The notes under the pieces: generated by a model | Database searches by the model: none | What the model saw: the letters and a program-made list of their open reading frames with translations, nothing else | Told to the model about the DNA's origin: nothing | Part shown: in pieces, positions 38,904 through 50,246 of the stretch | Position numbering within the stretch: the first letter of the stretch is position 1 | Layout: the number at the start of each line of letters is the position of its first letter | Translations under genes and position numbers: made by a program | NCBI RefSeq assembly: GCF_014279895.1 | Contig: NZ_CP047954.1 | Location: 620,001-684,000 of the forward strand | DNA: 64,000 nucleotides | Direction: 5' to 3' | DNA from: Synechococcus sp. M16.1 | GTDB lineage: Bacteria; Cyanobacteriota; Cyanobacteriia; PCC-6307; Cyanobiaceae

Positions 38904-40085
38904 TCAAAGGATGCTGATCGCGGCCACCAAAGCGCTGATGTCGTCGTCTGTGGTGGTGAGGTGTGTGCAGGCCCTCAAGCAACTGGGGTCTGCCAGGTTG
39001 CGAATCCACAGCCCCTGGGTCCCCAGCTGCTTCACATGCTCTGCAGGGGACACATCGCCAATGATCTGAAAACTCACCAGTCCGCTGGCGGGCGGCACAT
39101 CCAGCAGGGGCTTGACGGCCTCCAGCCCCTGGAGTGCTTGCCAGAGCTTGCCGCTGAGGGCTCGGATGTGGTCCCAGCGTTGCTGGGCCGATCCCGCGTT
39201 CTCCAGCAGTTGCAGTGAACAGCGCAGGCCGGCCATCAGGGGAACGCAGCTGGTGGCCACTTCGAAGCGGCGGCTGTCGTGATGAAACAGATCAGTGCTG
39301 CTCAGATCCACCTTGCTTTCATCACGCAGGCTGCGCCAACCGATCACTGTTGGAGACGCCTCGGCCACCACACGCTCTGAAAGCGCCACGCCCCCCAGGC
39401 CTTCCGGTCCACAGGCCCACTTGTGCCCAGTGAAGGCGTAGATGTCTGCCGCGGCAGCGGCTTCGTCGACGGGGATCTGCCCGAAGCTTTGGGCGGCATC
39501 CACCAACAGAAAAGGTTGTTGGGGGTGCTGATGGAGTTGCTTGGCGACGGCGGCTATCGGCATCACCTGGCCGGTGTTCCAGAGCAGATGGCTCAGCACC
39601 ACCAGACGGGTTCGGGGGGTGAGGGTTCGCTCAATCGCCTCGACCACGGCGGCATCGCATTGGGTCTGATCACCCCGCAAGTGCTTCACCGGCAGCACAT
39701 CGATGGCGAGGTTCTGGCGCCGGGCCAGTTCCACACAGGCACTCACAACACCGGGGTGTTCGCAGTCGCCGATCAGCAGCCGCTCCCCTTCGGTAAAGGG
39801 CAACCCCCAGAGCGGCAGCACGCAGCCGCTGGTGACGTTTTCAGTGAGGGCAAGCCGATGGGGCGGAACACCGCAACACTGGGCCAGAAGGCGGCGGGTG
39901 CTGTTCACCTCCTTGGCGATGTAGGGCCAAACATCTGCTGTGAATGGCCCCAACTCCTGAATGCGCGCCCAGCTTGCGGTGATCGCCTCCAGGGAAGGAT
40001 TGGGCAAAGGCCCTTGGCCGCCGTAATTGAAGTAGGTCTTGTTCTGTAGGGCAGGACACAGTGATCGCAACTTGTTTGTGTCCAT
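38904..40085 (-). CDS. class V aminotransferase (5' end supplied by the integrated element)
   Basis: PLP enzyme of the class V fold (cysteine desulfurase / isopenicillin-N-epimerase-like), 393 residues. The PLP Lys is K222 in AFTGHKWACGPEGLGG, with D196 in LLVDAAQSFG and the ring-stacking region ENVTSGCVLPLWGLPF. Its substrate is unknown. The current start (MDTNKLRSLCPALQNKTYFN) lies inside the integrated element up to the 20-bp core repeat at 40027-40046. A second copy of codons LCPALQNKTYFN, preceded by a different start, is stranded at 48369-48416. So the gene is chimeric but intact. Integration also replaced its promoter region. Confidence 0.85.
   Translation of the reverse strand: MDTNKLRSLCPALQNKTYFNYGGQGPLPNPSLEAITASWARIQELGPFTADVWPYIAKEVNSTRRLLAQCCGVPPHRLALTENVTSGCVLPLWGLPFTEGERLLIGDCEHPGVVSACVELARRQNLAIDVLPVKHLRGDQTQCDAAVVEAIERTLTPRTRLVVLSHLLWNTGQVMPIAAVAKQLHQHPQQPFLLVDAAQSFGQIPVDEAAAAADIYAFTGHKWACGPEGLGGVALSERVVAEASPTVIGWRSLRDESKVDLSSTDLFHHDSRRFEVATSCVPLMAGLRCSLQLLENAGSAQQRWDHIRALSGKLWQALQGLEAVKPLLDVPPASGLVSFQIIGDVSPAEHVKQLGTQGLWIRNLADPSCLRACTHLTTTDDDISALVAAISIL
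40027..40046. repeat. left attachment-site core
   Basis: TTGAAGTAGGTCTTGTTCTG, identical to 48373-48392. Read on the minus strand it is CAGAACAAGACCTACTTCAA, codons for QNKTYF plus two bases of N in the aminotransferase. Similarity beyond the core continues upstream in the gene sense only at the protein level (LCPAL), with changed third codon positions. That is the pattern expected of an attL made from an element-borne mimic of the gene start. Confidence 0.9.
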
Positions 40086-40107
40086 CTGGCTTTTGGCTGA
40101 CTAGGGT

Positions 40108-40129
40108 GTGACTAAAGCTGTGACTAAAG
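40108..40129 (+). repeat. paired GTGACTAAAG repeats, left end
   Basis: Two direct copies of GTGACTAAAG at 40108-40117 and 40120-40129, 12 bp start to start. They fill half of the 44-bp gap between the divergent starts of the aminotransferase (40085) and the integrase (40130). The same pair recurs at the right end in the same orientation. They resemble arm-type binding sites of a tyrosine recombinase or its excisionase. Confidence 0.8.
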
Positions 40130-41323
40130 GTGCCGTTTCGGAAGCATCCGACATACGTGCGTAAGGCCCGTAATGGGTACCAGTTGCAGCGTGGCGTTCC
40201 TAAAGACGTTCAGCCAGTCATAGGCAAAACGATTTGGGTGGAAGGTGCGGGTGCGACTTATCGCGTCGCCCAGCGTCTCTCGCCAGCTTTTGCGGCCAAG
40301 ACCGACCGGCTCATTGCTGAGGCTCGAAATGAGGTGTTGCTCACGGGGGATGAGCTGATTGATTCGCTGCCTCAACGGTTTGACCTCAAAAATTTTGAAA
40401 TTGTCGATCTGTTGCTTGAAGGCTCTGGTGTCGCCGTCGAGGAAGGTCTGATCACTCCCCAGCAAGAGAGCAGGTACAGAGCTGTTCTGAGGGGAGAGGA
40501 GCCGCCTCGACAACATCTCTCGAAGGACGAGTTGATCCAGCAGGCCAAAGCCCTTAAGTCGCCTGCAGCGCGGACCGAGATGAGTTGGAGGAGTGCTTTA
40601 GACGGTTTCTTGGAACACGCAGGAGTCACTCACCCAACCACTGCCACTAAGCAACATGCCATTGCCTATCGATCCTGGTTGCTGGAACGCCTCAATCCTT
40701 CAACTGTCAAAACGCAACTCGCCTTTTTGGGCGGTCTTTGGTCAGTTCTTTGTGAGTTGCAGCCTGATTCCACTCATATCTTCCGAGGACTTAATAAACG
40801 AATCAAGGTCGTCAAGGCCAGAAAGCCTGATATCACCATCATCGATCCATCGCAGTGGAAGGGAGCAGGAGAGCGGATTGAGATTTTTCAGTTCCTGTTT
40901 TTCACAGGTGCACGTCTTGCCGAAATTGCTGGCTTGCAAGCGGAGGACTTGCTGGAAGACCGGATTCTTATCCGGCCTAATGAGTTAAGGCCTCTTAAAA
41001 CCTCATCCTCTGAGCGGTCTATTCCGATTCATCCAAGGCTTAAGTCTTTGGCTGTAGAGCTACGCGAGAAGGAGGGACTTTTATGGCCAGCTCAGTATCA
41101 GGAGTCCAATCAGCGTTGGGGTGTCAACCTTTCAAAGCCATGCAGGAAAATAGTTGGAATTACTCCTAAAGTATTTAGAGACCGTGCTGCAACGGTATTA
41201 CGGTCCAATAATATGAATGAAGCTGTTGTCGTTGCATTGCTTGGGCATACACCCAATTCAATTTCAATGTTGTATGGCGCTGTGCCATGGAATGAGCTGA
41301 AACGTGCCGTAAAGCTCCTCTAA
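40130..41323 (+). CDS. int: tyrosine recombinase/integrase
   Basis: Site-specific recombinase that presumably integrates and excises the element. The 397-residue protein starts at GTG 40130 (PFRKHPTYVRKARNGYQLQR follows), an N-terminus typical of an arm-binding or DUF6538-like domain. The core-binding region is ~130-215 and the catalytic domain ~240-397. Predicted active-site residues are R262 (FFTGARLAEIAG), K290 (LKTSSSERS), R350 (PKVFRDRAAT), H373 (LLGHTPNS) and Y382 (SMLYG). The usual first His of the HxxR box is Lys347. It begins 84 bp from the left core repeat and reads into the element. Confidence 0.92.
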   Translation: MPFRKHPTYVRKARNGYQLQRGVPKDVQPVIGKTIWVEGAGATYRVAQRLSPAFAAKTDRLIAEARNEVLLTGDELIDSLPQRFDLKNFEIVDLLLEGSGVAVEEGLITPQQESRYRAVLRGEEPPRQHLSKDELIQQAKALKSPAARTEMSWRSALDGFLEHAGVTHPTTATKQHAIAYRSWLLERLNPSTVKTQLAFLGGLWSVLCELQPDSTHIFRGLNKRIKVVKARKPDITIIDPSQWKGAGERIEIFQFLFFTGARLAEIAGLQAEDLLEDRILIRPNELRPLKTSSSERSIPIHPRLKSLAVELREKEGLLWPAQYQESNQRWGVNLSKPCRKIVGITPKVFRDRAATVLRSNNMNEAVVVALLGHTPNSISMLYGAVPWNELKRAVKLL

Positions 41324-41346
41324 GGTCTGCGTTTCTGGCTAAATGA

Positions 41347-41640
41347 TTAATCCATCACGCAGCACTTATCTCCTGTTGTAGCGTCTTCTAGATGCTTCTG
41401 GGTAATGGTGCAGTAAAACAGGGGGACAGCCAAAGGCTTCCCACCATCATCAAAGAAAAGATGATCAAAAACTCGTGGTTTGGAAGCCACGTAAAAGAAA
41501 GGGGTGACTCTGAATGCCTTCGGGAGTAGGTCGTCATCCGCGTTGTCAGACGCCAGGGAGAACAAGCCTTCAGGCAGCTTGTAGTAGTACCCGTTATCTG
41601 ATCCCGTCAGCGTGACGCCCTAACACAGCGGCACCACCAT
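41347..41640 (-). pseudogene. small ORF interrupted by an in-frame UAG
   Basis: From ATG 41640 the frame reads MVVPLC, then TAG (41620-41622), then continues open as GVTLTGSDNGYYYKLPEGLF and on to KHLEDATTGDKCCVMD ending at 41347. After the TAG the first usable start is a TTG at 41565, giving 72 residues. The downstream protein has plausible composition but matches nothing I recognise. It is either a decayed gene, a gene starting at TTG or a non-standard codon, or a readthrough product; decay is most likely. Confidence 0.4.
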
Positions 41641-41872
41641 GAACTCAAGTGAAATCGTCCTCTACGGGGTATTCATTTGATTAGTGTTTGCGGAGTGAGT
41701 GCTACAGGCGGAGCCTGCGGCAACACCTCCCAAACCGATTCTAAGTGAATTCATAGATCAATATTGTTATGGATACTTGGAAGTGGGAGGCTAATCTTTT
41801 TTTTCAGGTAGACAACTTAAGTTGCTCATCAAAGATCAAGTAAGCCCCGACAAAGATCATTTGAGAGCAGCT
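41641..41872. other. non-coding, AT-rich stretch
   Basis: AT-rich with short T and A runs (for example CTTTTTTTTC near 41796-41806). I see no gene. It may hold promoters or the 3' end of the next minus-strand gene. Confidence 0.4.
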
Positions 41873-42583
41873 TTACTCAGACCATGGGTCCGATTTGGAT
41901 TCCTCTTGGGCTGCCTCACGTGCCGCGATGATTTCCTTTGCCTCTTGCTTCCAGGCCAATCCAATCGGATCGCCTTCCATTTTCAGGAGATATTCAGCCT
42001 GGCTAGCGAAGTAATCCTCTTTCGTGATCCGTCCAGCCTTGATCAGGATTAAGGCTCGGACGACATGGCCGTGGCAGTCATAAGGAGCTCCTTCCTCGAT
42101 GAAGCCCCCTCCATTTTTTCGGCTGAACTCGCGGGAGTCGGAAATCAAGTCGATGGTCTTGCCTGCAATTACCTCTGCAGCACGCGCACGTAACCAACGG
42201 TCAGCCCCGTCGGGCATGTTCCCTTTCTGGAGCCACTCATCCCAGACGTAGTCGCGGTATGCATCAATCTGCTGTTCGCGCGTCCACTCTGGTTTCTTTT
42301 TCTCGAAGAAGTTGCCTACAGGTGATTGTTCACGGCTGATGAAGTAGCGCCGTGCCAGATCGGGCCGCTGGGGCGATCTTGTTCCACGGTTTCCTTTTGG
42401 TGTAGTTGCACCAACCCAGTCAGAGCGAGTATCCGTTCTCCCCATAACTGCGATGGGGTCAATCTCGTCGTCATCAGTTTCATCCCACGCTGATGAACTA
42501 CCAACGACAGCCTCGGCAATCCAGGACAGCATTTCTTTGCTGTTCGTTCGCCAGTCCCATTTTTTGGCCCTACTACTCGTCAT
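41873..42583 (-). CDS. hypothetical protein of the integrated element
   Basis: Unrecognised 236-residue soluble protein starting MTSSRAKKWDWRTNSKEMLS. It is rich in charged residues, with an acidic patch (SSAWDETDDDEIDPIA), a middle region ARRYFISREQSPVGNFFEKK, and a well-behaved helical C-terminal half (EQQIDAYRDYVWDEWLQKGN, RWLRARAAEVIAGKTIDLIS). There is no signal peptide or membrane segment. It is the largest cargo gene of the element after the integrase. The late part, with mixed helices and a DCHGHVVRALILIKAGRITK segment, could be a small enzymatic or binding domain, but no family is called. Confidence 0.7.
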   Translation of the reverse strand: MTSSRAKKWDWRTNSKEMLSWIAEAVVGSSSAWDETDDDEIDPIAVMGRTDTRSDWVGATTPKGNRGTRSPQRPDLARRYFISREQSPVGNFFEKKKPEWTREQQIDAYRDYVWDEWLQKGNMPDGADRWLRARAAEVIAGKTIDLISDSREFSRKNGGGFIEEGAPYDCHGHVVRALILIKAGRITKEDYFASQAEYLLKMEGDPIGLAWKQEAKEIIAAREAAQEESKSDPWSE

Positions 42584-43062
42584 CGGCGTTTTCGGATCAC
42601 TTTGTCATAACTCATTCTGGACCTCCTCTTGGCCAGCAGGATCAATTGGTTCTGTAGAAGCGCCCATTTCTCCATCTATTGATTGATCTTCTCTGGCTTG
42701 CGGATGCAGAGCTGCGTCTCCGGCCAGTGTTGTAGACGCGATTCACGATTCATTGCTATGAATGCAAGTGAGACGAGATGGCCAGGAAAATGGCGGTCTT
42801 GGCTCAGGTGATCTGCTCTATGAGCTGCAGCGGATCACCTTGACATGAATTGGGCGGGACAGAATCAGGCTGTAGACCCTGATGTCTATCCATTGCTCGT
42901 ACACCGTTGCTGTGTTCGACACAAGGTGACATAGCTTTTTCTTATACTCGGAGTTCAGCCGCTCTTCACCCCTTGGCATTGAATGGCGCTTAGTGAAAGT
43001 TGCGATCCTTTTTCGGCCTAGGATATTGCAAGCCATATTGAACTGTGGTTCGAGGGTTTTAC
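42584..43062. other. intergenic stretch with one weak minus-strand ORF
   Basis: The only candidate is a 72-codon minus-strand frame at 42818-43036 (MACNILGRKRIATFTKRHSM...), basic and with no recognisable domain or clear ribosome-binding site. I do not regard it as established. A divergent promoter for the genes at 42583 (minus) and 43063 (plus) must lie here. Confidence 0.35.
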
Positions 43063-43305
43063 GTGAAACGACTGCCGGTTCTCCTTTCTGTTCTGCTCAT
43101 TTCGGCTCCCTCAGCTTTTGCTTGGGAGAGGTTTGACAGCGACGAAGGATATAAAAACTGCGTCGATGTGGCTTTAAGAGAATGGTTAGACCAGGGGAGA
43201 TGGAGATCATTGAGCAGGGTCGAGAAGAGCGCCTACAAGTCTTTGGCGCATCAGCGCTGCAGTTCGCCAGCCCAGCAACATCACTTGAGTGATGTGGTGA
43301 AATAA
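43063..43305 (+). CDS. small exported protein
   Basis: An 80-residue protein from GTG 43063 (an in-frame GTG at 43045 is also possible). The signal peptide is KRLPVLLSVLLISAPSAFA with likely cleavage before W-E-R-F. The mature part is ~60 residues with two Cys (YKNCVDVALREW, HQRCSSPAQQ) and a helical middle. Function unknown; periplasmic location is inferred. It is one of several small exported proteins in the element. Confidence 0.65.
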   Translation: MKRLPVLLSVLLISAPSAFAWERFDSDEGYKNCVDVALREWLDQGRWRSLSRVEKSAYKSLAHQRCSSPAQQHHLSDVVK

Positions 43306-43478
43306 TATTTAATCCCGTTTGGGTTTAGTAGTCGAGATCTGAAGGTTGATGAGAAAGGCGCTCGGCAGCTTTCTTCACTTGGCTCATTGGCGTTCCATAA
43401 CTTCCCATTTCGGTGTCTTCCAATCAGCTGCGCTTGGCGTCTCTATGGGAGTAGCTTTTCAATAGAGGAACAATCACG

Positions 43479-43901
43479 ATGCCCTCGCTCCAACCTTTCC
43501 TTGTGTCCCTGCTGATTGGCACAGCGGCTACGCCTCTCGTTGGCGTTTTAGGTGTAGAAGCCCAAACCGTTTCCCAGCCTGGTTATTCGCGTAGTACGAA
43601 GTGTTTTCGGGACGAGTACAGGGAGGAATACGTACCTGGTACAAAAGACAGGCCTGGATACGTACGGAATTGGACTGAAAAGGTAGAGATTGCCTGCTCT
43701 GGCAGCTCGACTCAGGCCTCTACGCAGAAATCCCAAGAAGTCGATATCGACAACAACGACTGCAGCCAAGGGAGTGTGATTGGTGGATTGCTTGGAGCAG
43801 GATTAGGCGCGGCTCTTTCCAGGGACAAAGGCCGTTGGGTGGGAGTCCCTGTTGGAGCTGCAGCAGGAGCAATGGTCGGCTGTCAGGTAGATGGTGGTTA
43901 A
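43479..43901 (+). CDS. exported glycine-zipper protein
   Basis: A 140-residue protein with an N-terminal signal (PSLQPFLVSLLIGTAATPLV, ending near GVEAQT), a tyrosine/charged middle (KCFRDEYREEYVPGTKDRPG), a Ser/Gln/Asn linker, and a C-terminal glycine zipper (SVIGGLLGAGLGAALSRDKG then GVPVGAAAGAMVGCQ). This matches the organisation of glycine-zipper 2TM / 17-kDa surface-antigen-like proteins of the outer membrane. No lipobox Cys is evident. Confidence 0.75.
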   Translation: MPSLQPFLVSLLIGTAATPLVGVLGVEAQTVSQPGYSRSTKCFRDEYREEYVPGTKDRPGYVRNWTEKVEIACSGSSTQASTQKSQEVDIDNNDCSQGSVIGGLLGAGLGAALSRDKGRWVGVPVGAAAGAMVGCQVDGG

Positions 43902-44360
43902 TGCTCTCTGAACACGCATGAGTCCTCTTCTCCTGCTGGTCGGATAGGGCTCGGCGGTTATCTCGCCGTATGGCGCAACAAGCGAGCCTTAAAAGCCAAA
44001 GTGCGACGCAGGCCTTAGCTGTCCTCAGCCAGCTCAATCACGTGCCGCAGCGTCACCCACTGCATGTTGAATCCCAGCTTTTGACAAGCGAAACCACCGC
44101 CTACACAGAGGTGATATCGCCGCTCTCAGAGGTGCAAATCAACTGGAGCACCTAAGTCATAACTTTGGAGACCCAGCACCCTGCGTATCACTTGCTACTT
44201 AAATTGAGTTTTGCTCTTCTCAATGACCGCTTAAGTGAATGGGGTAGAGGTAGCACCGCGTAAAAGCCACTAATCCCGACCAAACAGATTTCAAACGGTC
44301 GTGCCTAGGCAAACAACGCGACTTCGGGTGACCCGAAAGCATTTCTATGCAAAGGACCCC
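43902..44360. other. intergenic stretch with a possible gene remnant
   Basis: No complete gene found. On the minus strand an open frame at 44015-44125 reads RYHLCVGGGFACQKLGFNMQ and continues WVTLRHVIELAEDS to a stop. It looks protein-like but lacks a conventional start before ATG 44068 or so, suggesting a 5'-truncated remnant or a very small gene. The rest (44160-44360) shows nothing I can assign. Confidence 0.35.
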
Positions 44361-44792
44361 TTATAAGCCTTCAGAACGTCTTTTAACTGATTTTTGAATA
44401 GATTTAGTGACTGCATTGCTGTCCCCATCAGTAGCAAAAAGATAGTTAGGAGCATTCAGAGATGCGCATCCAGCCCTATCAAGCTCTTTGCGAAAAGAAG
44501 CCACAAAAGAGCTGCCCAAGCTTTGACCTTTCCAATCAATTCCTGGATCCCATGAATCCATCTCGACATTGTATGCGACAAGATATTCATTAAATATCAA
44601 ATCTAGAGCTTGATCTACCTCAATCATTCCTTTCTTATATGCGTGACAAATCACTCCTGCACCGGCTTGCGAAGCCCCAGACCAAAACGAATTGAAAGTA
44701 TCGTTTTCACTTGTTTTTTGTTCTGATTGAACTGATATGGGTGTGAATGCTGAAATCCCAAATACGGCAAATAAAGTTAGAAAAATTTTCAT
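44361..44792 (-). CDS. exported hypothetical protein
   Basis: A 143-residue protein from ATG 44792. The signal peptide is KIFLTLFAVFGISAFTPISV, cleavage probably near SVQSEQ. The mature domain has two Cys (AGVICHAYKKGMIE and DRAGCASLNAPN), which could form a disulfide, between helical segments. Low GC and A-rich codons distinguish it from the flanking core genome. Function unknown. Confidence 0.7.
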   Translation of the reverse strand: MKIFLTLFAVFGISAFTPISVQSEQKTSENDTFNSFWSGASQAGAGVICHAYKKGMIEVDQALDLIFNEYLVAYNVEMDSWDPGIDWKGQSLGSSFVASFRKELDRAGCASLNAPNYLFATDGDSNAVTKSIQKSVKRRSEGL

Positions 44793-44924
44793 CGCAACAA
44801 CATGGCTTTCTAGTCTCAGTGGAAGGTAGCGATTCAGGGCACGAAGGTAAAGCCCGAGGGGTCTGCATCCCCCCGGCTCCATCTGCACCAGAGCTGGCAC
44901 AGGTCGCGGTTATGTGATTTCGTC

Positions 44925-45155
44925 ATGCATCGCAGCAAAGAGGACAAGGAGGGAGGCCGCCCCTCCCAGGTGTATGAGATGTGGATGGTTTGCGAAAAGC
45001 ACGAGCAAGCTGGTCATAAGGGTCACCACGAATTCACTCGCGTAGTGGGCTACGCCCGTGAGGCGAGCCCACGAAGGAGAAGTACAAGCTCTGGGCTCCG
45101 TCGTAGCAAAAGCAGATGGGCTGGGTTCCTGAGGTGGGATGAGCCCTCGCAATAA
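44925..45155 (+). CDS. small His/Cys-containing hypothetical protein
   Basis: A 76-residue reading from ATG 44925. The first half is MHRSKEDKEGGRPSQVYEMW then MVCEKHEQAGHKGHHEFT, a His-rich stretch with a single Cys that could bind metal. The second half is strongly basic and Ser/Arg-rich. A hairpin follows (45158-45181). Coding status is moderately supported; the basic tail could be non-coding read-through. Confidence 0.4.
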   Translation: MHRSKEDKEGGRPSQVYEMWMVCEKHEQAGHKGHHEFTRVVGYAREASPRRRSTSSGLRRSKSRWAGFLRWDEPSQ

Positions 45156-45157
45156 AA

Positions 45158-45192
45158 AGGCAGGGATCTCACCCCCTGCCTCATCCGTCTTT
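45158..45192 (+). terminator. candidate terminator
   Basis: AGGCAGGG / CCCTGCCT (45158-45165, 45174-45181) pair in an 8-bp stem with an 8-nt loop, with CTTTTTC about eight bases downstream. It lies just after the small ORF ending at 45155. The T-run is too distant for a strong intrinsic terminator. Confidence 0.45.
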
Positions 45193-45761
45193 TTCTCCTG
45201 ATGATGCAGTCCAGAGAATCCGCAGCTCTGCTGGACAAGACCCTAGTGATGTCTGATTAATTGCGTGATGTCAGTCCCCTCTATCGGCGGGGCTGACTTC
45301 CAACAGCCGTTGCCGAATTAAAGATGCGGGACTACGGAACCGCGAGGAGAAAGATGTTCGCCCCGAGCGATGCGATCCGTTCCCTAACGCTGGCGAGCAG
45401 TTGTGCAATCAAGTGCAATGCACTGAATCTTTCCCGTTATTGGAAGACGGGGTTAAGCGCAGAAAGCCAGCCCCATCCACAGTTGCCGTGGGATGGGGGC
45501 TGGATTGTCTGCCAGCCACGGGTCGCTCTCCCGTGCTGCTGCGATGGCTCACTCAGCCGTAAGAGGAGATGTCGCAGGAACCATTGATAGGGAGTCTCCA
45601 GTGGAGTTGCACACCATTTTTCGGAGAGCTTTGGGATCAAGGATTTCTTCCGTGAAGGTCTGATAAGCAGGTCGCGATGGCTACAGAAAGTCGTCGTATG
45701 TCCTTCTAACGCCTACTGGCCCAATGCCACACGCGAAACTGAGATAAGGAATCAGCTTTGT
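45193..45761. other. 570-bp stretch without a convincing gene
   Basis: A plus-strand frame at 45324-45587 and a minus-strand one at 45437-45640 cover the same bases; neither has protein-like composition along its length. The region contains an imperfect inverted repeat (CCAGCCCCATCC near 45467 and GGATGGGGGCTGG near 45490). A structured non-coding RNA is possible but unsupported. Confidence 0.3.
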
Positions 45762-45896
45762 ATGGAAGACCGCTTGAAGGTCGCAATGAGTGCGGTGCTC
45801 ATTGCGGCAATGTTTGTAACCGCTGCTGGCGGTAACTGGTTGACGTTCCTTTTCTTCGCTGCCATGGCTGTCATCGTGACTTGGGAGACTAGCTAA
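45762..45896 (+). CDS. 44-residue two-helix membrane protein
   Basis: ATG 45762 is preceded by a purine-rich GATAAGGA. The protein is MEDRLKVAMSAVLIAAMFVT then AAGGNWLTFLFFAAMAVIVT then WETS and a TAA. Two hydrophobic helices joined by a Gly-Gly-Asn turn. The clean composition supports a real small gene, but there is no family assignment. Confidence 0.5.
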   Translation: MEDRLKVAMSAVLIAAMFVTAAGGNWLTFLFFAAMAVIVTWETS

Positions 45897-45983
45897 ACAG
45901 GCTTCATTAACTGGGTTAACACTGACCTCGTTACCCGCATTGTTCCAAGAGCCTGAACTCTGGGCTCCTCTGGCGGGTTGACG

Positions 45984-46496
45984 TCAAAATTGAGATTGAG
46001 GTGATGTACGGGGCGAGGTTGAGTCAGAAGCTGGAGACTGTTCTGAAGGGCTCTCCTCAGTACTTGTCTCAGAGGCCATATCCTCAACCTCTGAGACCGG
46101 TTTATCCGTCGCTTGACTTACTGAAGACTCAGGTTGAGTTGAAGGGGCTGTGACCCGAGTGGCGCAGTCGCGTCTGATTTTTTGGACATCCAATGCGAAT
46201 TGATTGGCTGCTCCTCCTGCCAGTAAGGCTTGCTCCATATCTCCTAGTTCATCCATCAGGACTGCAAACGCTCGGTATCGAGGAACAAGCAAGTCCATCC
46301 CTGCAGTGATCCTTCCGCTGTTGGCGCACCGCCCATCTAGGTCAAGGTCTGCCACCTTCTCGAGGTTCTTGTCCACCTCTTCGAGAAGCTCGTTGATCTG
46401 CGCTTGAACTTTTTCTGCTACCTGAGCGGCTGTCGGTTCCGCGGGTTTACAAGCAGCTAGCAACAGCAGTGGCAGAAGCAGCAGAAGTCTTTTCAT
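45984..46496 (-). CDS. lipoprotein
   Basis: A 170-residue protein with a lipoprotein signal (MKRLLLLLPLLLLAACKPAE), lipobox L-A-A-C with Cys16 as the acylation site. The mature part is helical (AQVAEKVQAQINELLEEVDK, LVPRYRAFAVLMDELGDMEQ), ending in a ~50-residue Ser/Glu/Thr/Pro disordered tail. It is probably membrane-anchored on the periplasmic side. Function unknown. Confidence 0.78.
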   Translation of the reverse strand: MKRLLLLLPLLLLAACKPAEPTAAQVAEKVQAQINELLEEVDKNLEKVADLDLDGRCANSGRITAGMDLLVPRYRAFAVLMDELGDMEQALLAGGAANQFALDVQKIRRDCATRVTAPSTQPESSVSQATDKPVSEVEDMASETSTEESPSEQSPASDSTSPRTSPQSQF

Positions 46497-46622
46497 ACCT
46501 CTGATTGTGCCTTGATCTCGCTTCTGGCGCCCAGCCCATTTGCTTTTGTACTACGCAGCGGGGAAGGAAGTGGGTCGCCAGAGCAGTTGGAGTGCGTAAT
46601 GCCCAACTTGATCGACGTTGGA

Positions 46623-47129
46623 TCACAATTGGTAGCTGCAGGTTGTTTGCCACTGATCAAGACCGCCATAACCGTCGTTTTCCAAGTAGGTCACACGAAC
46701 ATCGACACCGTTGATGTCGTTGGCGACGTACAGGTGATCTACGAAGACATAGCTCCCTGGATCCCACAGAGCTGCTTTGATTGCCCGCGCACAGTTTCGA
46801 ACCAAGTCCTGACGCGAAGCAGCCTTCAACCTTTCAGCAGGCTCCACATAAGCCTTGAGCTCTTCGCATTTGAAATGTTTGTCTCCTATTCCCGGTTCAG
46901 CCTTGTTGAGTTGGACACGAGTCCAGTCGCACCTCTTGAAGTCAGAGATGATCCCTGCACTTTTGAAATCAAAGTGGTCTTTCCCCTGCTTGTCGGTTAA
47001 AGCAGACGAAACATCACTGTCAGCCGACTTTGTTGAGAGAAACGCGTCTGCATGGCTGAAGTAACCCCGAGCTCCTAGGCCACCCGCGACAACAAGCAGA
47101 GCCGAGGGAATCCAGTGTCGCCTTCTCAT
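46623..47129 (-). CDS. membrane-anchored or exported hypothetical protein
   Basis: A 168-residue protein. The N-terminus MRRRHWIPSALLVVAGGLGA is a basic stretch plus hydrophobic helix, an uncleaved anchor or signal. The mature domain has four Cys (FKRCDWTRVQ, HFKCEELKAY, VRNCARAIKAAL, WQTTCSYQL), and the segment AALWDPGSYVFVDHLYVAND followed by alternating beta-like DVRVTYLENDGYGG. The pattern resembles small periplasmic domains that build on DPxSY motifs, but I do not assign a family. Confidence 0.68.
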   Translation of the reverse strand: MRRRHWIPSALLVVAGGLGARGYFSHADAFLSTKSADSDVSSALTDKQGKDHFDFKSAGIISDFKRCDWTRVQLNKAEPGIGDKHFKCEELKAYVEPAERLKAASRQDLVRNCARAIKAALWDPGSYVFVDHLYVANDINGVDVRVTYLENDGYGGLDQWQTTCSYQL

Positions 47130-47194
47130 TGACCTATGAGAGCCGGAGCCAAGGATGTAAGCGGTAGCAATTCAGACCCTTAGCAGAATCAGGC

Positions 47195-47335
47195 TCAGTG
47201 GTGGCCCTTTGCAGCTGCTGCTTCTGCTGACTGGCTTCGAAGGCAGTCTCCAGCGTTGGCGCCGCCAACGAATACAGCAAGGAACATGAACGCGACGATC
47301 ACGCCGCCACCTAAGTAGGCAATCGGGAGTTTCAT
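47195..47335 (-). CDS. 46-residue small exported/membrane protein
   Basis: From ATG 47335 the protein is MKLPIAYLGGGVIVAFMFLA then VFVGGANAGDCLRSQSAEAA and a short AAAKGHH tail. It has one hydrophobic helix with a possible signal-peptidase site (ANA-G). An upstream frame to 47377 exists but the local ATG is better. Confidence 0.55.
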   Translation of the reverse strand: MKLPIAYLGGGVIVAFMFLAVFVGGANAGDCLRSQSAEAAAAKGHH

Positions 47336-47406
47336 GTCAACGAAACTAACGGCGTTTTCAGCCCCTGGGCACGTCATTTGATACGAGGTCAGCGTCCATA
47401 TCAGAC

Positions 47407-47628
47407 CTAAGCAGGCTTAGGGCAACGCGCCTCAGCGGAAGCTGCGGAATATTCCAGATACTCCTCTAAGGGCTTAGCTGCATAGAGGCAGTGCCGGTAA
47501 TGCTCAACCTTCCGGAATAGGAAATCCATCTCCCTCTTCAGGTCACTCACGTTCTGCTCATACGCCTCTTCTGCATCCCGCAGCTTGTGCTGCGGTGCGA
47601 ACGAGTCAAAGCTCTTCCGGAGTGACAT
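47407..47628 (-). CDS. small coiled-coil-like hypothetical protein
   Basis: A 73-residue reading from ATG 47628 (MSLRKSFDSFAPQHKLRDAE). The middle is predicted helical with heptad-like spacing (EEAYEQNVSDLKREMDFLFR) and ends ASAEARCPKPA. No signal peptide, no recognised family. Confidence 0.5.
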   Translation of the reverse strand: MSLRKSFDSFAPQHKLRDAEEAYEQNVSDLKREMDFLFRKVEHYRHCLYAAKPLEEYLEYSAASAEARCPKPA

Positions 47629-47687
47629 TTGACCAAACCGTTGTGGCAATGATGCCAGCGGTTCAGATCCTCGTGCAGATGTGAGTC

Positions 47688-47924
47688 ATGAGATCAGCGT
47701 TTACCCAGTTGAAGACGCCTCAATCGTCTCGCCACCCCGTCCAAACTCCAGCAGAAATTTCTGAGGCCCGTCTACGTACTGGCATGGACCTGGAAGCCCC
47801 CCATGCCCCTGCTGTTTTTGAAATTTCGCAGGACTGGGTAGTGGCTCAGTCGCTGTACCAGCATTCCTCCAAGCCAACCCAGCTTCGATGGCAGTGCCAG
47901 CTGCCTGCTGCACAAGGGGCATAG
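47688..47924 (+). CDS. doubtful small ORF
   Basis: A 78-codon plus-strand frame (MRSAFTQLKTPQSSRHPVQT...). An equally long minus-strand frame covers the same bases, and neither has a clear ribosome-binding site or recognisable motif. Retained only because no other gene occupies this stretch. Confidence 0.25.
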   Translation: MRSAFTQLKTPQSSRHPVQTPAEISEARLRTGMDLEAPHAPAVFEISQDWVVAQSLYQHSSKPTQLRWQCQLPAAQGA

Positions 47925-47995
47925 AGGAGGGCTGCCCCTCCCAGTAGAAGAGACGGCCTATCTCGCTTGTTCAGGATTTGTCGATCAATTGTTGA

Positions 47996-48136
47996 TCAGC
48001 CTCCAGTGGCTATTCCCACAACAACCGTCGCAATAGAAACCACGATGCCTCCCCACTTCACCCATTCCGTGCCGTGATCATGAGTGTTGGCGAAAAGAAG
48101 AGCGCCAAGCTGAATGACAACAAGCTTTTCGAACAT
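47996..48136 (-). CDS. 46-residue small membrane protein
   Basis: ATG 48136 to TGA 47996 encodes MFEKLVVIQLGALLFANTHD then HGTEWVKWGGIVVSIATVVV then GIATGG. Two hydrophobic segments flank a His/Asp/Trp-containing loop. The gene is close to the right end of the element and is read away from it. Coding potential is good by composition. Confidence 0.5.
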   Translation of the reverse strand: MFEKLVVIQLGALLFANTHDHGTEWVKWGGIVVSIATVVVGIATGG

Positions 48137-48277
48137 GACAGAAGAGCCAATAGCAGCCTCTTTGTAACCCAGAGAACGTGTTCGTGCGGTTACATTGTCT
48201 CTCGAATTATGTATTGCTTGTTACTTTCGTTTGTCATGGCTCAGGGTGTTATCGGCTGACTGTGCCGACCAAATTTC

Positions 48278-48299
48278 GTGACTAAAGGTGTGACTAAAG
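48278..48299 (+). repeat. paired GTGACTAAAG repeats, right end
   Basis: Two direct copies of GTGACTAAAG at 48278-48287 and 48290-48299, again 12 bp start to start and in the same orientation as the left pair. They lie 73 bp inside the right core repeat; the left pair lies 61 bp inside the left core. Confidence 0.8.
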
Positions 48300-48368
48300 C
48301 TTTCTTGTCTACTCTTTGAAAGCCGTTGTGCTGCATGCGATCTGAGCTTGTGCAAAGAGTAGTGCGTC

Positions 48369-48416
48369 CTAGTTGAAGTAGGTCTTGTTCTGCAGGGCAG
48401 GGCAGAGGTCGCGCAT
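48369..48416 (-). pseudogene. displaced original 5' end of the aminotransferase gene
   Basis: From ATG 48416 the minus strand reads MRDLCPALQNKTYFN and then TAG. Twelve residues (LCPALQNKTYFN) are identical to residues 9-20 of the intact protein at 38904-40085. The codons of LCPAL differ between the two copies. This is the chromosomal start and probably promoter of the gene before integration, now cut off from its body 8.3 kb away. Confidence 0.85.
48373..48392. repeat. right attachment-site core
   Basis: Second perfect copy of the 20-bp core. On its right (chromosomal) side the sequence continues as the original start of the aminotransferase gene; on its left (element) side the reading frame hits TAG at once. 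Confidence 0.9.
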
Positions 48417-48799
48417 GGTCACGGCAATGGCGTGAGCCAAAGGATCGGTGTCACCACGTTGGCAGTGGCGTCGTCGCTCTTCAGGGTCTTTGCTTCTTGC
48501 TCAACGACTCAGGCCCACCTTTTTCTGAACTGTTTTTCAGCGGTTCGTTCCATCTGCCAGCCCGACCAACGTCGCCATTCGATTTCTGCGGCCGTCAGAC
48601 ATTGATCTGCAAGCGATTCTTTTTGATTGTTCGCTGTGCCAAAGCGGATGGGGCAAGCAGGACCAGCGTTCATCTCGAGCTCCCCATTTGATTCAACCTT
48701 GTCGTACAGGTTCAACCGATGGTGGTTGTGATTGCTACCGAACCAAATTGATCCGTATTTCAACTCAGTTTGTCGTCCAATCTGTCGGTTTGGACAACA
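48417..48799. other. chromosomal stretch with overlapping weak ORFs
   Basis: It should contain the original promoter of the aminotransferase. A minus-strand frame at 48509-48763 (MKYGSIWFGSNHNHHRLNLY...) gives an 84-residue protein with plausible composition, including NAGPACPIRFGTANNQ. It could be a real small gene or a remnant. The overlapping plus-strand frame looks like a shadow. Confidence 0.35.
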
Positions 48800-49033
48800 T
48801 CAGCTGGCTTTGAGGTAGACCTTGCGGCCATTGGCATCCACCTTGTAGCGACCACCCCGTGGACCGATGTGAATTACATCGGTGCTTGATGTGTTGATGG
48901 GGGTTGGTGGCTCCAGAGATTCCGGCTCAACCTCTATGGGGGCTGGAATCTCAGGTGTTTGTGTCCTCAGGTGTGGTGCTGCCTTGAAGATATTCAGCCC
49001 GAGCTTGCGATACAGAAAATCTGCAATTCGCAT
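48800..49033 (-). CDS. small protein with a PBCV-basic-adaptor-like C-terminal motif
   Basis: A 77-residue protein MRIADFLYRKLGLNIFKAAP with a Pro/Glu linker and the C-terminal HIGPRGGRYKVDANGRKVYL. The G-P-R-G-G-R-Y-x(6-8)-G-R-K-x-Y-L pattern resembles the short basic-adaptor motif of algal viruses that also occurs in scattered bacterial proteins. That resemblance is from memory. It lies just outside the element. Confidence 0.6.
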   Translation of the reverse strand: MRIADFLYRKLGLNIFKAAPHLRTQTPEIPAPIEVEPESLEPPTPINTSSTDVIHIGPRGGRYKVDANGRKVYLKAS

Positions 49034-49116
49034 GACGCATTACTGGAACTACCTTTTATTTTCCGGCGATGTCAAGTCTGTGATGGCGCTGATCCAAACG
49101 CCCGGTTCCAATTGCC

Positions 49117-49839
49117 TTACCGCTGATTGTTCGACGACTCTTCTCGATTGCTTTGCACGTCGGGGAAGTGCTCGTTCATGCAGTCCGGGCAGATGCCATG
49201 GCTGAAATTCAGCGTGCTGTGCTGCATTAGGAATCGTTCGATCGGTTGCCAGAACCCTTCGCTGTCGCGGATCGATTTGCAGTAGCTGCAGGTGCTGATT
49301 AAGCCTTGAGCGTGATGCATTTGGCAGAACTCATCCATCAGAGCCAGGGATCGGCGTCTGAGTTCCAACAGAGTGGTGGCCTGTTCCGCCAGGCCTTCCA
49401 TCACCTTGTACTGCGAATTCGTGAGCGATTTGGGAATGCGATCAATCACGCAAAGCGTTCCAATGCGGTGGTTGATGTCTGTTTTCAGGGGGAAGCCTGC
49501 GTAGAGCCGAATGTGGGGTTCTTCCTGAACGAGGGGGTTGTCGCGGAATTTCTCATCAAACAGCGCGTCCTCCACCACCAGAGGCTTGGAATCGAGAATC
49601 GTGTGGGCGCAAAAGGAAATATCCCTGTCGGTTTCGCTGGCTTCAAGGCCCACCTTTGATTTGAACCATTGACGCTTTTCATCCACCAGAGAGATCAGGG
49701 CAATCGGTGACTGGCAGATCTCTGATGCCATCCGAGTGATGTTGTCAAAGGCCTGTTCGGGCTTTGTTCCCAGAATCCGATATTCACTGAGGGACCTCAG
49801 CCTGGCTGCTTCGTTGATCGGTTTGGGTGCTGCCTGCAT
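49117..49839 (-). CDS. GAF-domain signalling protein
   Basis: A 240-residue protein. The N-terminal RLRSLSEYRILGTKPEQAFD leads into a GAF domain (residues ~25-165), with SLVDEKRQWFKSKVGLEASE, DISFCAHTILDSKPLVVEDA and the INHRIGTLCVIDRIPKSLTN closing segment. The C-terminal ~60 residues hold STCSYCKSIRDSEGFWQPIE and SHGICPDCMNEHFP, a CxxC...CPxC arrangement found downstream of PAS/GAF modules in other bacterial sensors. There is no kinase or cyclase output domain, so it is probably a stand-alone sensor or adaptor. Confidence 0.85.
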   Translation of the reverse strand: MQAAPKPINEAARLRSLSEYRILGTKPEQAFDNITRMASEICQSPIALISLVDEKRQWFKSKVGLEASETDRDISFCAHTILDSKPLVVEDALFDEKFRDNPLVQEEPHIRLYAGFPLKTDINHRIGTLCVIDRIPKSLTNSQYKVMEGLAEQATTLLELRRRSLALMDEFCQMHHAQGLISTCSYCKSIRDSEGFWQPIERFLMQHSTLNFSHGICPDCMNEHFPDVQSNREESSNNQR

Positions 49840-49943
49840 CGGCCCACCTCACTTGGTATGTCAATGGTCTAAGTCATCATTTTTTTATTTTCTGTAAATG
49901 TGCAGTGCGAAAAATTTAGCTTTGTGGATTTTGCTTTCTTCGA

Positions 49944-50246
49944 TTAATTAATTCTTGGGGCTGCTTCATAGAGCCACGCGCTGCGGCCATCCCTGAGGGT
50001 CACGCTGCTGCGTTGGTACACCTCAGGCACCTCCTCCCAATTATCCAAATCGGTCCAGCAAGGCTCGGGAACCCAGTACACCTCACCTGAGATAGCCCCG
50101 TCTCCCCGCCGCAGCATCGGGTAGCCCCGGTGCTGAATCTCGATGAAGCCGTCAACGATGCCGTCGCGGTCTCGTTTGGCGCCCTCCAGCAAGTGATGGG
50201 CGCTGCCGTTGCTTTTGAGTGATCCGTAGACGAAGAGGCGCTTCAG
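49944..50246 (-). CDS. gamma-glutamylcyclotransferase-like (AIG2/GGCT) protein, probable CTG start
   Basis: The conserved N-terminus of the family, [20 protein letters not shown], is encoded upstream of the first conventional start (TTG 50192). In that frame the only possible initiator after the preceding stop is CTG 50246, which overlaps the nifU-like stop as CTGA. Taken from there the protein has 100 residues, with the Y-G-S-L substrate loop and the later [15 protein letters not shown] carrying the likely catalytic Glu. Translation is probably coupled to the upstream gene. If TTG 50192 were used the protein would lack its active-site loop. Confidence 0.75.

Follow-up and report, generated by a model that had tools for sequence, protein, structure and literature searches.

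In the 64-kb stretch of the Synechococcus sp. M16.1 genome analysed here (in what follows, the window; other genomes and loci are designated by G and L numbers), an integrated element of 8346 bp occupies the 5' coding end of a class V aminotransferase-fold gene and is, with little room for doubt, a site-specific tyrosine-recombinase element that replaces the start of its target gene. The start codon and the first 17 codons (MDTNKLRSLCPALQNKT) are supplied by the element, the gene, which now begins MDTNKLRSLCPALQNKTYFN, stays open in frame across the junction, and the native start, MRDLCPALQNKTYFN, lies at the far end of the element. Integration in the 5' coding end with an element-carried start had been proposed from a sequence-only reading of the window, and the proposal is upheld by the target and its junctions, by starts displaced to the far end in related elements, by insert-free sites, by the co-inheritance of new start and integrase, and by the persistence of the new start in G004, a relative without integrase. 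The 20-bp repeat, the coordinates, the reading frames and the integrase at one end, as given in that reading, all proved correct on recheck.

The target gene and its two starts

The closest solved relatives of the target gene are two structures of the L-cysteine/L-cystine C-S lyase (C-DES; 1elq and 1n2t, E about 1e-90 to 1e-89), and by this similarity the gene looks like an L-cysteine/cystine lyase gene, encoding a sulfur-amino-acid enzyme. Since the C-DES structures align from query residue 9-10 onward, the replaced part comprises the stretch that precedes the conserved Y-F-N-x-G-G-Q-G motif, together with a short arm at the N-terminus. Two copies of a 20-bp perfect repeat, TTGAAGTAGGTCTTGTTCTG, enclosed in a 43-nt repeat of 86% identity, mark the junctions at a start-to-start spacing of 8346 bp (Table 1); the gene-proximal copy falls in the early codons of the target gene, as had been stated, namely in codons 14-20 and not 15-20. 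A gap of 44 bp separates the new start codon from the divergent integrase gene. The guanine plus cytosine fraction is 0.47-0.55 within the element and 0.62-0.67 on its left side, in keeping with the AT-richer insert described before; the AT-richer DNA, nevertheless, runs about 1.5 kb beyond the right end, so that composition alone is no marker of that end. This outer stretch (48417-49950), which carries a 240-aa open reading frame (ORF) that is GAF-like by eye and has no NCBIfam match, is matched also in G004 and G033 and is perhaps older acquired DNA. No transfer RNA (tRNA) gene was found across the 64-kb window, and a tRNA as target was rejected for that reason.

A displaced start beyond the element is present in all 12 lyase-site loci with a readable far end, that of the window among them (G000, G020, G024, G005, G016, G033, G144, G271, G120, G102, G162 and G276), at distances which, in ascending order, are 2.1, 6.3, 7.6, 8.3, 8.5, 9.1, 9.3, 13.2, 13.6, 14.4, 15.0 and 16.6 kb; the integrase-less G004 likewise has one at its far end. 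The far end could not be read in G208 and G364, whose contigs end soon after the integrase, nor in G157, with none in the 14.8 kb to the contig end. The identical stretches of the two start copies overlap at TAYTTCAA (codons Y and F and the greater part of the N codon) in 11 of the 12 loci; in G102 one base of this octamer differs, and TTCAA is common to every element. By these alignments, strand exchange maps to TAYTTCAA, that is, to the codons Y-F-N, in the same 11 loci. In 9 of 13 elements, G004 included, an immediate TAG closes the displaced start (48369-48371 in the window), and where it directly follows the displaced Y-F-N it turns the native start into a short frame.

The sequence-only reading had predicted that strains without the element would carry a continuous gene. 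A search of the genus for the target gene (34 genomes, of which 24 were positive, with 25 matches) yielded 11 loci of 10 genomes in which the gene is continuous, starts MRDLC or MRNLC and has no integrase match beside it. In the 60 nt before the Y codon, these insert-free loci agree with the right flank of the window at 54-58 positions in 10 of the 11 and at 45 in L004, as against 31-35 positions for the present start of the window; over the 300 nt downstream, 255-272 positions match the left side of the window and 71-79 the right side (L054 was used for L026, both being on one contig, in the flank comparison). Such flanks are the signature of an insertion between two gene halves. Integrase fossils remain in 5 of the 11 loci, so that “element-free” means there that the present kind of insert is missing. 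All 25 genus matches are open and without inner stops, those of element-bearing genomes included.

In a wider survey of gene starts, 105 loci were collected, of which L082 (YLN for YFN) was dropped, and six contig duplicates were also left out of a 98-row conservation tally. Among the 104 loci an MDTN-type start occurs in four (L002, L003, L015 and L016), all in element-bearing genomes, contrary to the possibility raised earlier that relatives without the element naturally start MDTNKLRS. Across the 98 loci no residue exceeds 24% at positions more than 12 codons before the Y codon, positions which in many of these loci precede the start codon, and the motif after Y is nearly conserved.

Integrase, repeats and inheritance of the new start

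The window integrase shows the R-K-K-R-H-Y pattern in alignment, in agreement with the R-K-H/K-R-H-Y pattern of lambda-type integrases (lambda residues as given in PMC10187409). It matches the PHROGs integrase family (E 4.9e-24) and scores 24.6 against Pfam Phage_integrase, just below the curated cut-off of 27.1; none of its Pfam matches (integrase, SAM-like and DUF6538) reaches its curated cut-off. Related integrases were found in 23 of 300 family, 22 of 399 order (one of them new, G364) and 7 of 386 phylum genomes, in samples that overlap, and every match falls within the family of the window; spread beyond it was not seen, the 7 matched genomes of the 386 phylum genomes included. The 26 integrase loci comprise 15 beside the lyase gene, 9 others in the tree and 2 partial ones (G221 and G066; L047 and L048) that were kept out of it. 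The 15 lyase-site integrases form a single branch with support of 100/100, and all 15 placed members of this clade (36-100% identity) are divergent against the 5' end of the lyase gene. A phage origin was rejected, as the integrase has no match in 50,697 phage records; in IMG/VR, 17 pattern stretches were found, none of which was confirmed as an integrase relative, in a search that reaches close relatives only.

Just inside each end of the window element there is a pair of GTGACTAAAG-N2-GTGACTAAAG repeats, missed by the sequence-only reading. Of 13 elements, 12 have on the gene side, and 11 on the far side, a pair of direct repeats of 9-10 nt with a 12-bp period (criterion, at least 8 of 9 matching); its distance from the junction is about 60-95 nt on the gene side and about 70-95 nt on the far side, and in G162 a 13-bp period also fits on one side. 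The repeat sequence varies by integrase group (TTTAGTCAC, TTGACCCAC, CTACCAACG, TATACCAAC and others) and is for the most part alike at both ends of any one element. The longest stretch shared by the two ends of one element has a mean of 13.5 nt, compared with 5.9 for 134 mismatched ends and 5.6 for shuffles, and the mismatched-end maximum of 11 nt is exceeded in 8 of 13 elements. These paired, 12-bp-spaced repeats have the layout of attP arm sites and are probably the arm sites of the integrase; as sequence, repeated arm-type sites stand on each side of the core in the window and are weak or incomplete in G004, G102, G271 and G276. When ATG, GTG and TTG only are counted as starts, the nearest in-frame starts lie 26 and 31 codons before Y in G005, upstream of both repeats (which would read ANQTTNQD), and 27 and 32 codons before Y in G144 (repeats would read TNASTNAN); in G016 and G033 the nearest start is a TTG within the second repeat and the next one is within the first (LTHGLTHA, LTHGLPHA). 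On this count, no host frame is available in G005 and G144 that leaves the repeats out, and the same holds in part for G016 and G033.

The new start is inherited with the integrase. Over 105 pairs of 15 genomes, the integrase-less G004 being excluded, identity in the 60 nt ahead of the junction correlates with that of the integrase (Spearman 0.71, with 0 of 2000 permutations as high) and not with that of the gene body (0.10, permutation 0.13). G000 and G033, for example, share 96% identity past the junction and 42% in the 60 nt ahead of it. By this measure, the new start belongs to the element, not to the gene body.

In G004, 8 of the 9 window cargo ORFs tried are present with 67-96% protein identity, and no trace of an integrase was found (best E 0.3). 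The MDTNKLRS start is kept there with three changes relative to that of the window, all synonymous, and in the displaced native start ATG has become ATC and Y has become H; the start of the element appears to have become the working one. Integrase-like stretches also stand beside the gene in 10 of 20 chosen loci. In L007, L010, L011, L012 and L014 they are divergent fossils with stops (E 4e-13 to 6e-4) next to “native” MRDL or MRNL starts, and in L060, L064, L067, L068 and L120 they are broken or partial; no fossil was found in L008 and L009, whose flanks are most like that of the window. Because of these fossils, some of the present native starts may themselves be relics of older elements, which suggests repeated replacement. 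Serial replacement at G271, suggested by the likeness of its displaced start to the start on the G208 element, was set aside as weak, the contig ending 101 nt before the Y codon.

A sister clade at dapF, and the cargo

Sister integrases with 33-37% identity adjoin leuS in G008, G002, G131, G243 and G033 (loci L155, L156, L157, L158 and L049, in the leuS-dapF interval). A copy of the dapF start (MLQFSK...) stands at the integrase side of each of these elements, and dapF itself, with its own start, is at the far end in G008, G002, G131 and G243 and on another contig in G033; in G008 the two dapF start copies share a short stretch only, found by motif and outside the top repeats. The polarity is opposite to that of the lyase site: it is the displaced dapF start that has the integrase beside it, and the new one comes from the far end of the element. 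In a survey of dapF (32 genus genomes with a match, 30 loci read), leuS is divergent at 305-346 bp in 17 of the 30 loci, and L198 has the same upstream motif; in 11 there is no leuS match in the flank read and the leader is different, and in L195 leuS is at 563 bp and the start is changed, which makes about 12 of the 30 loci with a changed dapF leader. From these junctions, the sister clade replaces the 5' end of dapF in a like manner. Other sisters seem to sit at the 3' ends of a YajQ-like gene, glnA and glyS, neighbours which we name, presumptively, from their sequences. Of the 9 integrases aligned from the dapF, yajQ, glyS and glnA group (L040-L046, L049 and L050), 8 show His where the first catalytic Arg is expected (G-A/S/C-H-x-S-E), and L044 retains the Arg.

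Differing cargo at the same site in other genomes, also predicted by the sequence-only reading, was found. Cargo of the window element is listed in Table 1; for the relatives, Pfam was searched with 20 chosen larger proteins out of 125 ORFs of at least 90 aa. These include ion-channel and fasciclin proteins in G020; a subtilase, RTX-repeat proteins and an ion channel in G024; primase/helicase-type domains in G120 and G271; a DUF4135-LANC protein in G102 (L152 136-3360), which we take to be LanM-like and lanthipeptide synthetase-like; and a Mu-type transposase in G162. The 16.6-kb element of G033 encodes a 1257-aa Pfam RNA_pol protein, presumably of the single-subunit (T7-like) family, and a VapE-like domain protein (L140 7719-11492 and 14127-15107), suggesting a satellite-like replicon, and the 2.1-kb element of G016 holds the integrase and one 91-aa ORF (counting ORFs of at least 90 aa). 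Excisionase, relaxase and transfer genes, as well as replication and packaging genes, were not recognised in the window cargo proteins searched, and relaxase or transfer genes were not recognised among the 20 proteins of the relatives; VapE-like, primase or RNA polymerase matches occur in G033, G120 and G271. A cargo gene of about 175 aa, first taken as common to several elements, is not one family, only the G020 and G024 copies agreeing (99%), and defence cargo was rejected, PADLOC giving three matches on 2 of 8 proteins, one a subtilase and two weak. At window 45327-45540 and at L131 14676-14887 and 15024-15090, Rfam RNAs are carried on the element: Cyano-2 in two genomes and, in the G004 copy, also Cyano-1. 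Both RNA families may be part of mobile elements.

Table 1. Features of the element in the window and of its target gene
Feature	Position	Strand	Remarks
Target gene, class V aminotransferase fold, intact, 393 aa	38904..40085	-	C-DES (L-cysteine/L-cystine C-S lyase) closest among solved structures
Start codon and first 17 codons supplied by the element	40035..40085	-	tracks integrase; missing in element-free relatives
Integrated element, Synechococcus sp. M16.1	40035..48380		8346 bp
Gene-proximal 20-bp repeat	40027..40046		strand exchange narrowed to 40027-40034 (TACTTCAA, minus strand)
Distal-junction 20-bp repeat	48373..48392		
Putative arm-type repeat pair, gene-proximal	40108..40129		GTGACTAAAG twice, at a 12-bp spacing
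Putative arm-type repeat pair, distal	48278..48299		GTGACTAAAG-N2-GTGACTAAAG
Integrase, tyrosine recombinase kind, 397 aa	40130..41323	+	complete ORF, GTG start; R-K-K-R-H-Y pattern
Cargo ORF, 236 aa	41873..42583	-	no family; also in G004
Cargo ORF, 86 aa	43045..43305	+	also in G004
Cargo ORF, 140 aa	43479..43901	+	glycine-zipper 2TM protein; also in G004
Cargo ORF	44361..44792	-	no family; unmatched in G004
Cyano-2 RNA (RF01702)	45327..45540	-	also in G004 element
Cargo ORF, 170 aa	45984..46496	-	Leu-rich N-terminus with LAAC, presumably lipobox-like; also in G004
Cargo ORF, 168 aa	46623..47129	-	sub-threshold DUF2880; also in G004
Cargo ORF, 60 aa	47195..47377	-	also in G004
Cargo ORF, 80 aa	47407..47649	-	also in G004
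Displaced native start MRDLCPALQNKTYFN, then element-side TAG	48369..48416	-	
Native upstream region, now severed from target gene	48417..48480	-	right bound undefined

Mechanism, alternatives and known systems

In the mechanism proposed here, the attachment site attP would consist of arm-type sites around a core that copies the conserved host gene start, as a short frame MDTNKLRSLCPALQNKTYFN-stop. The window integrase, with the repeats as its binding sites, would catalyse a strand exchange that takes place in the chromosomal gene at the codons Y-F-N; this joins the gene body to the start codon and first 17 codons of the element, next to the divergent integrase gene, and moves the native start to the far end, where a TAG closes it. 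The new start would be translated, from a promoter that lies within the element.

Several observations weigh against parts of this picture. No sigma-70-like promoter was found by a consensus scan of 39950-40450, and by the same kind of scan none was located near either start. The replacement start is uncertain in G016, G033 and G162, where no usable start is nearer than a TTG codon, and two of the five codon changes between the new starts of G020 and G000 are non-synonymous, with the result that the case for selection on the new start rests on few changes. As to the arm sites, the end repeats of G102 (6 nt) and G276 (7 nt) agree no better than mismatched ends, those of G271 (9), G004 (10) and G005 (10) do not pass the mismatched maximum of 11, the arm intervals were picked after inspection of the end alignments, and the 12-bp period is given without a shuffled control. 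Excision, with an excised circle, is postulated.

That the 20-bp match is due to chance or to a local duplication, with an unrelated integrase nearby, has a negligible probability: the repeat is short, and the far copies in G016 (9 nt) and G033 (11 nt), which were recognised by translation and by 36-37 identities out of 63, are unremarkable by run length, but a chance match is excluded because the same arrangement recurs in 12 of 12 readable loci, that of the window included, and both versions were rejected in view of the insert-free sites, the repeats at both ends and the integrase-linked start sequence. Start replacement by a tyrosine-recombinase element being retained, the consequences for the host may be read in more than one way. 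It is somewhat probable that the gene serves as a passive safe harbour, being simply repaired, with an altered N-terminus and promoter that have no consequence; the openness of all genus copies and the low conservation more than 12 codons before Y, where many positions precede the start codon, agree with this, whereas a dusA element brings a measurable expression change in its host (PMC8409611), and in G004 the displaced start decays and the new one stays in frame. The latter points to use of the new start, at whatever level of expression. Likewise compatible with start replacement, and rather unlikely in our judgement, is that the element controls the enzyme, as the sequence-only reading had concluded, the binding of the integrase or the integrated or excised state setting the expression of the host gene. 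The short distance between the new start codon and the integrase start, with the repeats between them, or within the frame in other elements, would favour such control, as would the overlap of attachment region and integrase promoter that leads to autoregulation in KplE1-type prophages (PMC2951348) and the lowered dusA expression caused by the dusA element (PMC8409611); on the other hand, the promoter scan was negative, and a plain safe harbour explains the sequences equally well. Also compatible, and possible at a somewhat lower than even chance, is that the window copy is no longer mobile and its start is a domesticated relic, an outcome exemplified by G004 and consistent with the failure to recognise an excisionase or transfer gene in the cargo proteins searched; the window integrase is nevertheless of full length, its active-site pattern is kept and both ends are intact.

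More speculatively, the starts of the lyase and dapF genes would in effect be owned by the elements and repeatedly rewritten, with relic starts left behind next to fossil integrases, and in some lineages the integrase repeats, translated as repeats of four residues at the N-terminus of the enzyme (ANQTTNQD, TNASTNAN, perhaps LTHGLTHA), would make integrase binding and gene expression compete.

Capture of a 5' end with replacement of the start is a standing strategy of this Synechococcus-group integrase clade with two metabolic targets, which helps to account for differences between close strains in the start codon, N-terminus and upstream region of the lyase and dapF genes. The natural empty, occupied and relic alleles offer a means to ask if elements tune sulfur and lysine/cell-wall metabolism.

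The swap of a gene start at the 5' end, claimed in the sequence-only reading, is thus present here, but its principle is not new, having been shown for dusA elements. The mechanism is of a known kind, because dusA-specific integrases and islands enter a housekeeping gene at its 5' coding end and replace its start (PMC4482086; PMC8409611), and because SXT/R391 integrative and conjugative elements integrate in the 5' end of prfC (PMC4344509). The window element resembles the dusA elements (Farrugia 2015; Vibrio IMEVchUSA3) in its 5'-end insertion, in the start and first codons that it supplies and in the native start at its far end. It differs in its targets, a cystine lyase-like gene and, for the sisters, dapF, in place of the dusA or dusB that define the dusA-specific integrase family; in its host group; in the putative arm repeats in or beside the new frame; in starts that track the integrase and are kept by an integrase-less relative; and in the lack of recognised transfer or mobilisation genes in the cargo searched. 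In proteobacteria, start replacement is also known at prfC. SXT, of about 100 kb, undergoes conjugative transfer as a circle (PMC2654960), and the likeness to it lies in the use of the 5' end of a protein gene, by elements which are here of 2.1-16.6 kb and without recognised transfer genes. Among tyrosine-recombinase elements with cargo, the tycheposons, known first from marine Prochlorococcus, border tRNA genes (PMC10872708), unlike the present site, which is the 5' end of a protein gene in a window where no tRNA was found. A tyrosine-type integrase family of Prochlorococcus and Synechococcus likewise marks variable islands near tRNA-Phe and tRNA-Cys (PMC10187409) and, compared by description, differs from the present clade in its tRNA sites. 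In the tRNA-associated prophage KplE1, the intS promoter overlaps the attachment region, with possible autoregulation (PMC2951348); here the attachment region also holds the start of a host protein. Among the literature matches listed, judged by titles and abstract openings, none concerned the lyase or the dapF site. So far as that literature goes, the present elements add to these systems their target genes and a dedicated clade of cyanobacterial integrases, together with relic starts, repeats within the host frame and a measure of how closely start and integrase are inherited together.

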